64,000 bases of DNA from Diacronema lutheri (taxonomy: Eukaryota; Haptophyta; Pavlovophyceae; Pavlovales; Pavlovaceae). The notes under the pieces are model-generated. The model made no database searches, was not told the origin of the DNA, and was given only the letters and a program-made list of their open reading frames with translations. The stretch is from NCBI GenBank assembly GCA_019448385.1, contig JAGTXO010000027.1, forward strand, positions 248,001-312,000, read 5' to 3'. Position 1 is the first letter of the stretch; each line of letters starts with the position of its first letter. Both the position numbers and the translations under genes were made by a program. Below, piece by piece: positions 1-7,045 of this stretch.

Positions 1-2
1 GC

Positions 3-3000
3 CGGCAGCACGTCGGCGCGGGCGGCAGCGCGGCGGGCCGGCGGCTCGCGGCCATCGCACGGCGGCAGCGCGGCGTGCGCGCGCCGCCGCCCGCCGCGCG
101 CTTCCTCGCCACGCTGCCGCCACCGCCACGCGACGGCCTCGCGCGCACGAGCAAGCAGGCGCGCGCGAGGCGCAACGCGGACGGACGGCCGGCGCACGCG
201 CGCGCGGCCAACGCGCGCGCCTTCTACCGCGGCGTGGAGCTCGGCGTGCACGCGACGCGCGCCATCGTCGACGCGCGCCACGCCGACCTGCCGCAGGCCG
301 TCTTCGTGGCGGAGGCGCGGGCGATCGTCGCGCGCTCCGCCGGCGGCGGCGCGCTGCTCGCGCCGGACGACGTGCGCGACCTGTGCGACGCGCAGACGGA
401 CGCCGATCGCGCTGCGATCTGGGCGTCGGTGGGCGCGCACGAGGCGACGCGCATCTTCGCGCTCGTCACGCGCAACGCGAGCTTGGCGGGCGCGGCGCTG
501 CTCGTGCTGCACACGCCGGCGGGCGCGCCGGCGCGCGCGCTCGGGCTCCTGGCGACGCGCTCGCGCGCGCCGTCGACGGGCGCGCCGCGCGACGCGCACA
601 GGGCGCTGGTGCAGCGGTTGGACGTGCTGATGGACGCGATCGCCGCGGCGCGAGGCGCGTCGCCGCTCGAGCTCGAGCTCGCGCTCGCGCCCGAGCCGCA
701 GAGCGCGTGCAACGCGCGTGCGGCCGCGCTGCTCTGCCTGCAGGCCGTCGCGGACGCGAGCGGCCGTCCCGCCGCTGAGGACGCGCTGGCCGCGCTCGAC
801 GACGCGCGCGGCATCGACCGGCACTGCCACGCCGTCCGGCAGCAGATCGAGGCGAAGCTCGCGTGGCGGCGCGCCGACGGCGCCGTCGGCGTTGACGGCG
901 CCGACGGCGCGCCCGCGCTCGCGCCTGCCGCCGCACCGCCGGCGTGCGCGCCGGCGCACGCTGCCGGCGAGGCGGCGGTCGACCAGGCGATCGTCACGCG
1001 GGTGCGCGACGCGCTGCGCGCGTGGGCGACGACTGGCACCGCGCCCAGCGCGGCGGTGCTCGACGACGCCTGCGCCGCGTACACGGCCCGCGCACGCGCG
1101 CGCAAGGACGCGCGCACGGCGCTGGGCCCGACGCGCGCGGCCGAGCTGCTCGCCGCGGCCGCGCGCGGCGGAGCCGACGGGGCGGATGCCGCGCGCGCGC
1201 TGCTCGGCGGCACGCCGCGCCTGCTCGTCGTGCTCCTCTGCGTGCCCGTCGCCGCGCCGTCCGGCGAGCCGCCGCGCCCGGTCGGGCTGCTCGTCGCCGA
1301 CCGGCCGACGGACGACTCGCGCCCGGCCGCGCTCGTGCGCTACGACTTTGCGCCGCTCGACGCGGACGTGGCCGTCGCGGTCGGCGCGCATGCCGTCGCG
1401 CTGGCCAGTGCGATCTGGCCGCTGCTCGCGGCCGAGGGGGAGCCGCGGCCATCGCCCGTCGTGCGCTCGCAGCCGCGCGGCGGCGACGATGGCGCGCGTG
1501 CGCTCGCAACGTTCGCGTGCCTCGACGCGCTGATGACCGCCAGCGTCGGCGCGCACGGCCTCGCGGGCGGCGCGGGCATGCTGCCCGCGCTGGTCGCGCG
1601 AGGCGCCGCGGCCGCCCAGCGCGAGCGGCAGCTGCGCGCGGCCGCCGAGAGGCTGGGCGGCACGGTCGCTGGGTGGCCGGACACGGGCGCGAGCGCGGCG
1701 GGCGCGAGCGTCGACGAGGAGGCGCGCACGTACGAGGTCGAGGCGGTCGTCGACGAGCGCCGCAAGGCGGGCAAGAAGGTGACGTTCCAGTTCCGGATCA
1801 GGTGGCGGGGCTACGACGAGAGCGCCGACACGTGGGAGCCTGAGGCCAACGTGAGCAGCGACCTCGTCGCCCAGTTCCGCAAGACGCGCGACGAGCAGAA
1901 GCGGCGCGCGGGCGTATCGGGCAGCGGCAGCGGCGGCGCGGGCGCGGCGTCGGCATTGGCGTCGGCGCCGCTTCGCGCGCACGGCGAGTCGGGCGCCGCG
2001 GGCAAGCGCGCCGCGGCGGGTGCCGCCGCGAGCGCGCGCGACGCCGCGGGCGCGCGCGCGCCGAGCGTTCCCCGCGCGCGCGGCGTCGAGCGCGCGCGCG
2101 TGGACGAGCCCGCTGCGCCGAGCGCGCGCGCCGCCGGCGGCGCGACGGCGCGCACGCGCGTCAGCGTGCTCCCGGGCTTCGTGGTCAAGCGCTCGACGCT
2201 CAACGCGGGGCCGCAGGCGGTGACGGCGCAGCCCGGTGCGCGGAAGGAGCTGCGGCGCATCGCGGCGGCCGTGCACAGGCTCACGACACAGGCGTACCGC
2301 GTCATCAACAAGGTGGTGCGCGACGAGGCTGCGGTGGCGAGCGCGCAGGCCGTCGGCGCGGCGTCGGGCGGCCCGTCGACCAGCGTGCACACGTCGACCA
2401 CGATGGACAAGGGAACCGTCCGTGCGATCTTCTCGGCCATCGGCTGGCACAAGGACGAGAGCACGTACGGTGCAGCGCCCCGAGGCAAGCCCGCCGAGCA
2501 AGCCGCCGCGCAGACCAAGGCGGCGACGGCGCGCGCCGTCGGCGAGATGGCCGAGGGCGTCCAGCCCGTCTGCGCGGTGGGCCTCACGGAGATCCTCGAG
2601 GCGGAGGCGACGCAGGTGTCCACCGCGTGCCTGATGCATCCATCGCGCGTCGTGAACGGGCTGCTCCGCGACGTCGTCCGCGCGGCAGTCGAGCGCGACG
2701 AGGCGCTCGTCGCGCTGCCCGAGATGCAGCGAAACGCGCGCGTGCGCGAGCTGTGCGAGCGGCTGCTGCGCGGCGACGTGGAGGGCGCGCGCGTCGGCTG
2801 CCCCGCCGCGCTCGACCGCCACCTGCCCGACATGGTCCTCCACAAGATCGACTACAAGTGCACGCCCACGAAAAGGTGGAACTACGACCGGCACACGACG
2901 CGCTACTTCCTCGTGCAGATCCGCACCCTGCAGCACGTGGCCGAGGGGCAGGCGCTGCTCTGCCGGCTCGCGCACATCCACACGCAGCTGACCGGACGGC

Positions 3001-4891
3001 CGCCGCGGTACAATGTGGCGCCGCTGCGCACGCACAATGTGCGCGCGAGGCGCGGCTGCCGCTACCGCCGCCGAGCGCCCAAGCGCGCGCGCCGCCGCCG
3101 TGCGCGCCGCCCCGCGGCCAGGTTGGTCACGCGCCCGCGCGCTCGCGCGCCGCGCGCTGCGCGCAGGTGCCGCGCAACGTGCGCCTCACCGCGAACGCCA
3201 TCTGGGAGACGCTCCCGGACGACGAGCGCAAGGAGCTGCGCGCGCGGCTCAAGGCGCTGGACCTGCGCGACCACGATGGCGAGCCGATCAAGTGGACAGG
3301 CACAAACGGCAACACCCCGCCGATGTCGGACGTGCGCGTCAGGTACGCGGTCTTTGCGACGCGCTTCGACATCTCCAACCGCGTCTTCGACTACGCCGGG
3401 CGCGAGCGGCCGCCGGCCGATCTGCCGTGGCACGCGCGGCGCTCGTGGGTTGGCCTCGCGCCGCTGCCGCGCGTGCCGCTCCCGGGCCGGCAGCCCGTCA
3501 AGTCGGTGGTGACAGATGGCGTCGCCGTGCACGCCGTCGGGACCGTCCTCGTGCCGAAGGCGCAGGCGCCGGCCGGCGGCTCGGGCGTCCTGCACCGCTG
3601 GCGCCGGCCGGACGGGCGCATCGCCGTCGCGCTCGGCTCCGAGCTGCGGCGGGCGATCGACGTCGAGGCGGCGGTCGTCGTCGCGGCCGACCCGAACATG
3701 GGCAACATCACCACCTACTCTGCGCACGTCGGGCGGGCGGCCGTCTGGCGGCAGTTCACGCAGCGCGCGCGCGCGCGCGCCGCGGGCTTTGCGCGCGAGA
3801 CGGCCAAGACCAACGCGGCGCGGCGGCGCGTGCGCACCGACGGGCGCGGCGAGGAGTTCAGCGTGGAGGCGGACGAGGCGCGGCTTGGCGAGGCGCACAG
3901 CGCCAAGGTGCTCGACGCGGGCAAATACATCGCCTTCCACCGCGAGAGCGCGCGGGTGCGCGAGCGCGCCGCCGAGCACGTGTACGACGCGCCGGCGCGC
4001 CGGAAGGAGCGCTGGCGGCGCGACAGCGGCGGGCGGTCCAACGCGGCGCGCGTCGCCGAGGCGCTCATCGCGGCGCACTGTGTCGACGGCGTGACGCGCG
4101 ACCGGCTGCTCGTGTGCGTGGGCAAGTGGCTGCGCGACCACAAGGGCGCGCAGCCCAAGGGCGCGCCGCCCGCCTTCCAGGTGGGGCTGCTGCGCGAGCT
4201 GCGGCGGCGCGGCGTCGCGGCCGTCTTCGTGCCCGAGCCGTACACGTCGATGCACTGCTCGATGCCGCGGCTCGCCAAGGGCGGCAGGCTGCAGCGCTGC
4301 GGCGCGGAGCTCGCGCAGAACCCGCGCCTGCCCGTGGCAAAGGGCGGCACGCGCACGGTGCACGCGCTCGTCATCTGCCCGGCGTGCAACGGCGGCAAGA
4401 AGCCCGTGCACCGCGACTACAACGCCGCGCGCAACATCTTCTACGACGTGCACGACATGGCGGCGCACGCGGCCGGGCGCGACACCACGTCGACGCCTGA
4501 GCGCTTTGCCCTCGTGCTCGCCTGGTGGGCGCGCGGCGAGGTGTGGGAGCGTGAGGAGCGCATGGTGCACGGCGAGGGCGACGACTGCGACGACGAGTGC
4601 GACGGCGACGACGAGGGCGACGACGAGGGCGACGACGACGACGACGACGATGGCAGCGGCGACGGCGGCGGCGGCGAGGGCGACGGCGACGGCGACGGCG
4701 ACGGAGGCGGCGGCGGCGACGACGACGATGACGGCGGGGGAGGCGGCGGCGGCGACGGCGGTGGCGACGACGGCGGCGGGCGCGGCGGCGGTGGCGGCGG
4801 CGGCTCTCGCGCCCGCACCCCCGCCCGCGGAGCTGCCAGCGCCAGTGCCGGCGGCGGCAGCGCGCGCGGGCCGAAGCGCGGCCGGCGTTGA
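3..4891 (+). CDS. Chromodomain-Fanzor (TnpB-like RNA-guided nuclease) fusion, 5' partial
   Basis: Two exons, 3..3038 and 3167..4891, joined by a 128-bp GT-AG intron with matching phase; the frame is open to the window edge, so the start lies upstream. A chromodomain sits at about 1728-1900 (aromatic residues and a TWEP motif). The second exon carries a Fanzor core: a TDGV motif, RuvC-I DPNMGN with its Asp at 3689-3691, the EPYTS motif with Glu at 4235-4237 (where Fanzors carry a displaced RuvC-II Glu), a CPAC zinc-finger half, and RuvC-III HRDYNAARN with its Asp at 4415-4417. The C-terminus is an Asp/Gly-rich tail (about 4580-4830) ending in the basic stretch PKRGRR, a possible nuclear signal. 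Known for the family: Fanzors are eukaryotic relatives of TnpB that cut DNA with a guide RNA. Inferred: the chromodomain may tether the protein to methylated chromatin. No other transposon protein or terminal repeat was recognised. Sure of the Fanzor core; less sure of the full N-terminal extent. Confidence 0.85.
3039..3166 (+). other. Intron of the chromodomain-Fanzor gene
   Basis: The donor is AAT|GTGCGC and the acceptor GCGCAG|GTG. The upstream frame degenerates into Arg/Ala-rich translation after the donor, while a different frame picks up a family-like segment right after the acceptor. Both ends are phase 0. Splicing restores a continuous Fanzor-like stretch. Confidence 0.75.
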
Positions 4892-5300
4892 CGCACGGCC
4901 GAGCCGCGCAGCGGTCGACGCTTTGCGGGCTCTGCCCAGGTCGCGCGCGGCTGGCGACGCGTGCCGCGCGCGGCACGACCGTGCACGCCGCCACCCGTGG
5001 CCGAGCGCGCCGCACCAGCCGGCCCGCTCCAACCGCCGTGCGGATCACGGACGCTCGCTACGGCTCGTCGGCGCGCGTCACCTGCGCCGGCGGCCACGGC
5101 GCCGTCTGCTCCGGCCTCGTCGCGAGCAGCCCGACCGCTGCTCGCCGCCCGCACGCCGCCGCAGCAACGCTGCGCGTCGTGCTCCCCCGCTCGCCAAACG
5201 CGAAGAGCTCCCTCACAAGGACGTCCTTCCGAACGGCCCGCGCTGCACTCGGGGCGCGATCGTGCCCCTGATCGGATTTGGCTTGACCATCTATACCAGC
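4892..5300. other. 409-bp gap between convergent Fanzor and ankyrin genes
   Basis: No convincing protein gene. It holds the 3' flank of the Fanzor gene, where guide-RNA scaffolds of this family are often encoded, and the 3' end of the convergent ankyrin gene. An 18-bp perfect palindrome lies at 4960-4977 (CGTGCCGCG and its mirror), but a palindrome of this size is expected about once by chance in 64 kb of such GC-rich DNA. The last 50 bases (from about 5270) are slightly AT-richer. Confidence 0.4.
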
Positions 5301-7045
5301 TCACAAGCTCGAGTGCCCGCTTCGGCGGGGTCCGGCGCGAGCCGGCGCGCGCGGCGCGGCCTTGCCGCCGCTGGTCGCGCGCGCGCGCGCGCTGGTGACG
5401 ACGAGCACCTGCGGCTGCTCGCCCGGCCCGCCGCCGCGCGGCGCCGCGCCCACGCCCACGCGCGCCTCGACCGCAGCTGCGCCAGCGGGCCATGTGCGCA
5501 GCGCTGCCTCGCACGCGAAGGGAAGCGGAGCCGGCGGCGCGGCCTCGATCACACGCGCCGGCGCCGACGACGGCGGCGGTGGCAGCGCGCCCGGCGACGG
5601 CAAGGCGCGCGCGCGCGCGCCGCGCGCGAGCGCGGCGGCCGCCGGCGGCACGGCCGCGCCTGCGCTGACCGGCCGCGCGGGCGCGGAGCGTCGGCTCGTG
5701 AGTCGCGCCGCGCGGAGGCGAGCGTCGGCTTCTGCCTCGCGCTGCTTGGCGAGCGTTGCGCGCTGCGCGGCGGGGCCGTTGCATGCGGCCATCTCCAGGA
5801 GCTCGGGCGCGAGCGCCCTTGCCACGCGTAGCACCAGCGCGCTGCCCGCCATTGGCGGCGCCGCCGCGCCGCGCGCCGCGCGCGCGCCGGCCGAGGCGGC
5901 GCGCGCGATGCGAAATGGCGCCAGCCGCGCCGACTCACCGCCAGAGCCGGCGCTCGCGTTACCAGACGCGGCGCGCGCGTCGTCGGCATACTGGAGCAAG
6001 ATCGCCTGCGAGCGCACCTCCGCCTCGGCGCGCAGCTTGTGCAGCCACGCGGGCGGCGCGTGTCCATGCTCATCGACCGCAGAGCAATCCGCGCCGCGCA
6101 CGAGCAGAACACTAGCGCTCTCCGCGGCGCCCAGCGCCGCCTCGTGCGCCACGGCCGCCATGCGCGCGCGCATCGCCGCGGGCAACGCGGCGCACGGACC
6201 GTCCGTGCCGGTGGCTGGCGCGCCGCGCTGCCGGCGCTGCGAGCGCGTGGCCGCGCGGCCGCGCTCGCCGTTGCCCGCCGGCATGCGCTCCGCGCGCTGC
6301 TTGGCGGGGCTCGTGCGCGCGCGCGCGCCGCGCACGGACGGTGAGGCGGAGGAGCCTCGGCCTCGGCTCGCGCCAAACATACCGCCGCCGAGCGCGCGCG
6401 CCTGCACCGCCGATGCCTCGGCAATTGCGATGGCGACGTGCAGCGCCGTCGCGCCGTCCGCCTGCCTCCGCTCGAGGAGGATTTGGGGCTGCGCGCACAG
6501 CTTCTCGATGTGCTCTGCTGAGGCGCCGGCGCGCACGGCGGTGTGCAGCGGCGTGCCCACGCTCTGCGCCAGCGCGTTGATATCAGCGCCTGCGTCAAGT
6601 AGGACGTCGAAGAGCGCCTCGGAGAAGGGTGCGAGGCACGCGACGTGGCACGGTGTCAGGCCGCCATCCGCGACGATGTTCACATCGGCGCCGGCAAGCA
6701 GGAGCTGAGCGCACACGCGCACGTCGGCGCACGAGGTCGCGGCGAGCAGCATGCGCTCCTACAAAAGCGGTGCGCGTGTGCGCGCGCCAAAGTGCCGGTG
6801 CGCGAGGTCGTGAGCGTGCGCGCGCGCGCGCGGCGTGCGCGCGCCGGCTCGCGCGCGCAGCTGCTGACCTCGCGCGCCATGTCGCGCGCGGCGAAGTGCA
6901 GGCCGGGCTCGTGCTGAAGTTGCCAGCGGTGGCTGAGAGGGTGCGGAAGCGTTGCTGAAACAGAGCGCGCAGGCGGCAGGCCGACGACGTCGACTCGGCG
7001 CCGACCGGCGGTGCTCGGCCTTGCCGCCTTGCCGACCTTGCGCAT
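5301..7045 (-). CDS. Ankyrin-repeat protein
   Basis: Two exons on the minus strand, 7045..6869 and 6758..5301, separated by a 110-bp GT-AG intron (acceptor TTGTAG). Both ends are phase 0, and 545 codons result. The join completes a first repeat running through LHFAARD into LLLAGADVN. Two further repeats follow (PCHVACLA..LLDAGADIN; TPLHTAVRAGA; TALHVAIA), and another near the middle (VLLVRGADCS). The remaining ~350 residues are Ala/Arg/Ser-rich low complexity with no recognised domain. Ankyrin repeats mediate protein-protein contacts; no catalytic module is visible, so the role is unknown. The ATG at 7045 is 104 bp from the divergent ATG at 7150. The first exon start is the least certain part. 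Confidence 0.6.

Follow-up and report, generated by a model that had tools for sequence, protein, structure and literature searches.

Fanzors are eukaryotic RNA-guided nucleases, relatives of TnpB, that belong to transposons and viruses, and chromodomains read histone methylation. Predicted domains of both kinds lie at the left end of a 64,000-nucleotide stretch of the genome of the haptophyte alga Diacronema lutheri (contig C14, positions 248001-312000; here, the window). They occupy the right (3') quarter of a 21,564-bp copy of a mobile element (window 1..5296, forward strand; G000:C14:231733-253296). On that strand, this part of the element holds the 3' part of a giant first exon (3..3038), which includes the chromodomain (1731..1883), an Ala/Gly/Arg/Ser-rich linker delimited on the translation (1884..2150) and a probable N-terminal region of the Fanzor, resembling its wedge and recognition domains (WED/REC; 2151..3038), assigned from its position, with no Pfam match. 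There follow an intron (3039..3166), a second exon with a Fanzor-type RuvC nuclease core, an acidic tail, a short basic end and the stop codon (3167..4891), and a noncoding 3' end of 405 nt (4892..5296). Nuclease and chromodomain share one continuous frame of predicted coding character across the intron of a gene model. The finding is larger in extent than a sequence-only reading of the locus, which had described a chromodomain fused to a Fanzor nuclease: the frame ends a very large mobile element and also carries a lambda-exonuclease domain.

The chromodomain, previously placed by eye at about 1728-1900, was recovered as a profile match at 1731..1883 on the forward strand, corresponding to residues 577-627 of the frame 3..3038 (PF00385, E 1.2e-12; 48 bits, the cut-off being 25.1). 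Among solved structures in the PDB, those nearest to it in sequence include the chromodomains of CDYL, CDY1, HP1 and Clr4. Three aromatic residues, Y1731, W1803 and Y1812, align with HP1 at positions that we take to be those of its methyl-lysine cage, and they are unvaried in all 20 element copies fetched from the genome. With the profile match and the three-aromatic cage both present, the domain is canonical by sequence.

The intron, of GT-AG type, phase 0 and 128 nt, is drawn from a gene-model junction and from the copies: its length, GT and AG, and the 574-aa length of exon 2, are kept in 20 of the 20 fetched copies. The D. lutheri gene model KFE25_006464 (P0005) splices exactly at 3038/3167, with the junction RTHN|VPRN, and over its first 106 residues, which span the junction, 104 positions are identical to the spliced product. 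The single spliced frame and junction of the sequence-only reading have in this model an exact counterpart. According to the accessible text of the genome paper, annotation was done with BRAKER2 and RNA-seq (PMC8379373), and KFE25_006464 presumably stems from it. The model runs on into SAM-domain exons beyond the start of the element's exon 2, and it therefore supports the junction and not the whole protein. A host gene may have exonised part of the element here, or the model may have been fused in error.

Exon 2 matched PF07282, the Cas12f1-like TNB domain, with E 1.7e-6 and 28.5 bits, over the cut-off of 26.3, and the same family was found at E up to 0.01 in two of the three members of set A2. 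All the landmarks of a Fanzor core that had been read from the letters lie where they had been placed, on the forward strand: the RuvC-I Asp (D175 of exon 2, motif DPN, 3689..3691), the alternative RuvC-II Glu (E357, 4235..4237), which stands six residues before the first zinc-finger Cys (E357-PYTSMH-C364), a zinc finger of the form C-x13-C...CPAC (4256..4387, CPAC at 4376-4387), and the RuvC-III Asp (D417 in HRDYNAARNI, 4415..4417). The TnpB/Fanzor motif D-X(125,275)-[TS][TS]-XX-C4-X(5,50)-RD, as given in the accessible part of Bao and Jurka (PMC3627910), is present as D175-X184-TS-MH-C4-X8-RD, and occurred in none of 2000 shuffles. An alternative Glu placed six residues ahead of the zinc finger, which tells Fanzors from ordinary TnpB and is typical of the former in the text available of PMC10711439, is found at E357. 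D175, N177, E357 and D417 keep the D-x-N...E...D pattern of the SpuFz1 metal ligands, listed as D383, N385, E541 and D606 in the available portion of PMC10432273. The tail is mostly an Asp/Gly-rich repeat (4571..4804, forward strand), and the basic tail of the earlier description applies to the last ~30 residues, ending at 4888.

The two parts of the frame travel together. In the D. lutheri assembly (43.49 Mb in 103 contigs, C1-C103), sequence patterns matched the chromodomain at 231 places, RuvC-III at 232, the right end of the element at 221 and the left end at 205, and the reversed patterns used as controls gave 0 matches. Pairing was analysed on contigs C1-C40, which hold 97 of the 231 chromodomain, 99 of the 232 RuvC-III, 85 of the 221 right-end and 83 of the 205 left-end places. 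There, 88 of the 97 chromodomain matches are followed, 2573-2612 nt downstream, by a RuvC-III match on the same strand; 9 of the 97 chromodomain and 11 of the 99 RuvC-III matches have no partner. Of 419 exon 2 candidates in the genome, the 95 with the best scores are 98-100% identical and free of internal stops; internal stops were likewise absent from the 92 best of 346 candidates for the chromodomain-REC part. Several of these probe searches scored the best candidates only, and their rows are not whole counts.

Besides the gene model, four relatives of exon 2 (P0001-P0004, 39-97% identity) were found among the best 8000 candidates scored, of which P0004 ends before RuvC-II. A search with the RuvC-III region (800 candidates) returned only P0001, and none of 12 pattern matches in viral contigs was confirmed as a relative. 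Other Fanzor-type TNB loci occur in the D. lutheri genome: 31 rows were among the best, with 31.8-44.5 bits, 13 of them having one common score. One of the 31 (C29:418955) is the present element by position, 18 are on contigs beyond the position lists, and the remaining 12, on C1-C41, lie outside the element's RuvC-III places, with the nearest chromodomain match at least ~7 kb away. One of the ~30 loci other than the element lies at G000:C14:371982-372209.

The giant first exon extends far to the left of the window. Its frame, which the sequence-only reading had started at position 3, opens 9.1 kb to the left of the window and runs for 4190 aa in the window copy; among the 92 best-scored copies the open length is ~4500 codons in many and 668 to 5746 in others. 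From the chromodomain to the intron donor the frame is open in all 20 fetched copies, and over the whole 6.7 kb compared in 18 of them. GC content at third codon positions (GC3) stays at 0.90-0.98 across window 1500-3038, which favours a coding character of the chromodomain, linker and REC stretches; within the linker it is 0.92-0.97, with a codon-position contrast below that of the neighbouring stretches. About 3.2 kb upstream of the chromodomain, the same open frame encodes a predicted lambda-exonuclease/RecE-like domain (L021:1675-2136, residues 559-712; ~2.0-1.5 kb upstream of the window start). It matched the RecE-like family phrog_434 with E 1.6e-17, and also TIGR03033 (E 3.4e-6) and YqaJ (E 0.0021), each below its own cut-off. 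A stretch of the frame also appeared Ulp1-like, as a by-eye impression only, and a reading of the giant frame as consecutive Ulp1-like repeats was rejected, as BLASTP found no internal repeat and Pfam no peptidase match.

These exons belong to a young, high-copy mobile element of 21-31 kb, present in ~200 near-identical copies and recently spread in D. lutheri. A genome search with the 3-kb probe L042 placed the left end of the window copy 16,268 bp before the window begins. The right terminus, GATTTGGCTTGACCATCTATAC (5275..5296, forward strand), accounts for the 221 right-end matches in the genome at no more than 2 mismatches, and 19 of the 20 fetched copies end at the identical base, with differing sequence beyond; L036 ends three bases earlier. 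One copy, L022, is identical to the window copy over 8930 bp. Of the 83 left ends on C1-C40, 56 could be paired with a right end within 45 kb and 27 could not. The paired copies measure 21.4-21.6 kb (11), 26.0-26.5 kb (6), 29.1-29.4 kb (8), 31.0 kb (23) or other lengths (8). Multiplying the 205 left ends by the mean length of 28.0 kb of the 56 paired copies gives a rough estimate of ~13% for the share of the genome made up by the element; repeats in total are put at 22.9% of the D. lutheri genome in the accessible text of PMC8379373.

In six copies with both flanks read, no constant target-site duplication was found, although the last base of the left flank is C in five of the six. The CAG/CAG that flanks the C14 copy was rejected as a target-site duplication, being absent from the other five. 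Long terminal inverted repeats were rejected as well, since the right end has no inverted copy in L041, L042 or the rest of the window (up to 3 mismatches), and so were terminal hairpins, the terminal stretches folding with z of -1.54, -1.00 and -0.13 against shuffles. Contigs C1, C8, C12, C14 and C33 stop at or within one base of the element's right end and C32 stops at a left end; among the matches listed, fewer left than right ends coincide with contig ends. The Canu assembly probably broke at a long repeat in these places, the alternative being a preference of the element for chromosome ends. An ankyrin-repeat gene lies next to the window copy (window 5304-6758, reverse strand; Ank_2, E 5.3e-10), its frame ending five bases from the right end of the element.

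The left third of the element contains a Pif1-like helicase in two frames, probably separated by an intron (L041:3-997; E 3.5e-19 and 1.4e-23), and a ubiquitin C-terminal hydrolase gene (L041:2741-4057; E 7.3e-15). The 31-kb form carries ~9.5 kb beyond the 21.6-kb copy. In 29-kb copies on C28 and C86, which the L041 probe crosses at the break, the match is lost at ~L041:4496, which probably places the extra DNA between the giant frame and the gene for the hydrolase. A 320-bp inverted-repeat structure in the left part (L042:2365-2685), with ~75% self-match on the opposite strand, resembles a nested miniature inverted-repeat transposable element. No reverse transcriptase matched in the Pfam-scanned frames. 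The KDZ transposase PF18758 gave no match in the genome, nor did it in the control genomes. Phage_integrase gave 16 genome matches, none of them by eye inside a mapped copy, although diverged recombinases could escape such a search.

It is proposed, with a probability of about one half, that the Fanzor-type RuvC nuclease constitutes the C-terminal portion of a very large protein with chromodomain and lambda-exonuclease, which would be tethered to chromatin and would aid retention or copying of the element. The exons and domains would be made as one protein, and a guide RNA derived from the right end of the element and its flanking sequence may direct the nuclease. Cutting of an empty or homologous site would then lead to the element being kept or copied by repair. 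The chromodomain would tether the complex to histone-methylated chromatin, the probable location of silenced copies, and tethering would confine its action to such chromatin instead of the whole genome.

Several results weigh against this proposal. At RuvC-I the nuclease has DPN in place of the DPG of Fanzors; DTG is found in P0002, and DPG in P0003 and P0004. Since the description of Fanzors used here calls DPG 'near exclusively' present in its accessible text, DPN is a departure from Fanzors and not an exclusion. The first half of the zinc finger is C-x13-C and not CxxC, the spacing being 15 residues in P0002 and 12 in P0003. Searches of the PDB with phmmer and two profiles reached no Fanzor structure, the best profile match to a related nuclease being Cas12f (E 0.011). 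As the motif, the alternative Glu and the ligand pattern are present but these features depart, the enzyme is a diverged Fanzor-type nuclease. The noncoding 3' end (4892..5296, forward strand), the expected site of an omega-RNA, has a fold no more stable than that of shuffles (z -1.13), and no Rfam match was found in window 1-6500. No transposase family matched in the frames scanned, the ~9.5 kb of the 31-kb form lying outside the scan. For the chromodomain-REC part, no relative was found among the best 7999 candidates of the protein collection, and the openness of its frame is weak evidence at 75-80% GC, where the antisense strand, too, has an open frame, of 1061 aa.

The distribution of changes among copies points both ways. 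Selection was tested on 19 of the 20 copies with 2000 simulations; the remaining copy, L030, fails to align along the first 3.5 kb and was excluded. In the exon 2 core, 28.6 nonsynonymous changes would be expected and 19 were counted (P 0.0005), a deficit indicating that the nuclease is under constraint; this deficit and the Fanzor motif, absent from all 2000 shuffles, exceed chance. No such sign was seen for the chromodomain-REC part, where 50 nonsynonymous changes were observed against 50.4 expected (P 0.50) and purifying selection is not apparent; within the chromodomain, four sites vary, each of them nonsynonymously. The stretch 3-1658 of the window is similar (22 against 21.7, P 0.60), and further upstream, in L021:1-3300, 50 nonsynonymous changes compare with 56 expected (P 0.05). 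The exon 2 tail gave P 0.46, and the intron (P 0.99) and 3' noncoding (P 0.81) controls showed no deficit. The chromodomain-REC part of the 20 copies has 0 stops where 1.8 would be expected, which is weak evidence because the probability of zero is 0.17. Together with the lack of a relative among the 7999 candidates, the lack of selection weakens the case for a shared function of chromodomain and nuclease. The claim of a nuclease with a built-in chromatin reader is in part supported, by the shared frame and the pairing of 88 of 97 matches, and not by any constraint on the reader.

Within the REC-like region, L021 6087-6657 (window 2453-3023), the differences in L023, L024, L028, L030 and L031 are mostly nonsynonymous, and some come in runs (L021 6220-6223 in L023, 6115-6117 in L031). 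In SpuFz1 the REC region reads the target-adjacent motif (TAM). The differences could reflect relaxed constraint, conversion or diversification.

The most serious competitor, though still an improbable one at perhaps one chance in a few, is that chromodomain and nuclease do not work as a single protein. In that case the giant frame would be a set of captured coding pieces, open because of high GC, with the nuclease translated alone or spliced differently and the chromodomain a passenger. The clear purifying selection on the exon 2 core, with none on the chromodomain-REC part, is what this alternative would lead one to expect, as are the low complexity of the linker and the presence of other frames open for more than 1000 aa. 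The open frames P0002 and P0003 are, moreover, listed as starting at the first residue of exon 2, but non-splicing gene finders would put their starts at this residue in any case, and a GTG start may underlie the M. Against separate proteins stand the profile-level conservation of the chromodomain, with its cage intact in 20 of 20 copies, a GC3 of 0.92-0.97 maintained through the linker, and the joining of exon 1 to exon 2 in KFE25_006464; the lack of stops in the chromodomain-REC part of the 20 copies adds a weak point.

It is somewhat less probable again that this is a Helitron-like element that captured a Fanzor and other genes, as in CRe-1, -2 and -3 of Chlamydomonas, with the Fanzor an accessory. 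The occurrence of Fanzor1 in Helitrons has precedent in the accessible part of PMC3627910, and the Pif1 helicase, the 5' T and the lack of a constant target-site duplication are consistent with this origin. However, the 21.6-kb copy, searched by pattern, yielded no convincing HUH Rep motif, Helitron_like_N (PF14214) has a single match genome-wide, on C63 and outside the element, which is not high copy, the terminal stretches fold no better than shuffles whereas Helitron2 has hairpins at both ends, and the element's 3' end reads CTATAC in place of the CTRR of Helitron1.

A bolder version, in which the giant protein, as chromatin reader, RNA-guided cutter and recombination exonuclease, would together with Pif1 copy 21-31 kb by guided breaks and repair synthesis with no classical transposase (the Fanzor cutting, the lambda-exonuclease resecting 5'-3', Pif1 serving as break-induced-replication helicase, repair proceeding from a cut site aimed by the chromodomain), is quite unlikely: it fits the lambda-exonuclease/RecE-like and Pif1 domains, the lack of a constant target-site duplication (six copies) and of an inverted copy of the right end (the window's copy), and scanned frames in which no transposase family matched, with the sole Helitron_like_N match lying outside the element and none of the Phage_integrase matches, by eye, inside a mapped copy, but the ~9.5 kb of the 31-kb form may hold a transposase, the negative for transposases comes without a genome-wide DDE search, Pif1-like helicases are found in Helitrons too, and the flanks differ between copies, so that insertion at new, non-homologous sites would need a further step.

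The proposed chromatin-tethered nuclease has much in common with the Fanzor1 proteins SpuFz1, GtFz1 and PpFz1, which, so far as the accessible texts of Bao and Jurka 2013 and Saito 2023 describe them, likewise have the TnpB/Fanzor motif, the alternative Glu, the D/N/E/D pattern, a TNB zinc finger and a location in mobile elements. Unlike these, the D. lutheri nuclease is C-terminal in a frame of more than 4000 aa with chromodomain and lambda-exonuclease, has C-x13-C and DPN, and is missed by PDB searches for Fanzors. The D. lutheri element is, as far as is known, much larger than the CRe elements. The latter, Helitron2 elements according to the portion of PMC3627910 available, likewise reside in an alga, have a multi-exon Fanzor gene and many copies, and show no target-site duplication at copies ending at the consensus 5' end, as none that is constant was found here; they differ in that the D. 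lutheri element has a chromodomain and no recognised Rep domain or terminal hairpins. PpFz1 is likewise a Fanzor with an additional host-interaction domain, but in the available text of PMC11423790 its domain sits within RuvC as an insertion that binds cyclophilin, whereas the extra domain in D. lutheri is N-terminal and of chromatin-reader type.

The chromodomains of long terminal repeat (LTR) retrotransposons are thought to guide integration to heterochromatin. In those elements the integrase carries the chromodomain, whereas in D. lutheri it is a nuclease of RNA-guided type that appears to do so; a chromodomain on a DNA-acting enzyme of a mobile element is otherwise a shared feature, to judge from the accessible text of PMC6338049. 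A fusion of chromodomain and Fanzor, new as far as the sequence-only reading could tell, was found nowhere in the literature searched, subscription papers being outside its reach. The string 'chromo' is absent from the main text of PMC10711439 and PMC11423790 and occurs in two passages of PMC10432273 only within 'chromosome', and the accessible portions of PMC6338049 and PMC10820777 do not describe such a fusion.

We know of no account of how Fanzors find their targets inside chromatin. If the proposed reading is true, a natural fusion of this kind, present in ~200 copies nearly identical to one another, would support the view that chromatin state can aim such nucleases, and the chromatin aiming of Fanzors would become testable in a cultured alga.

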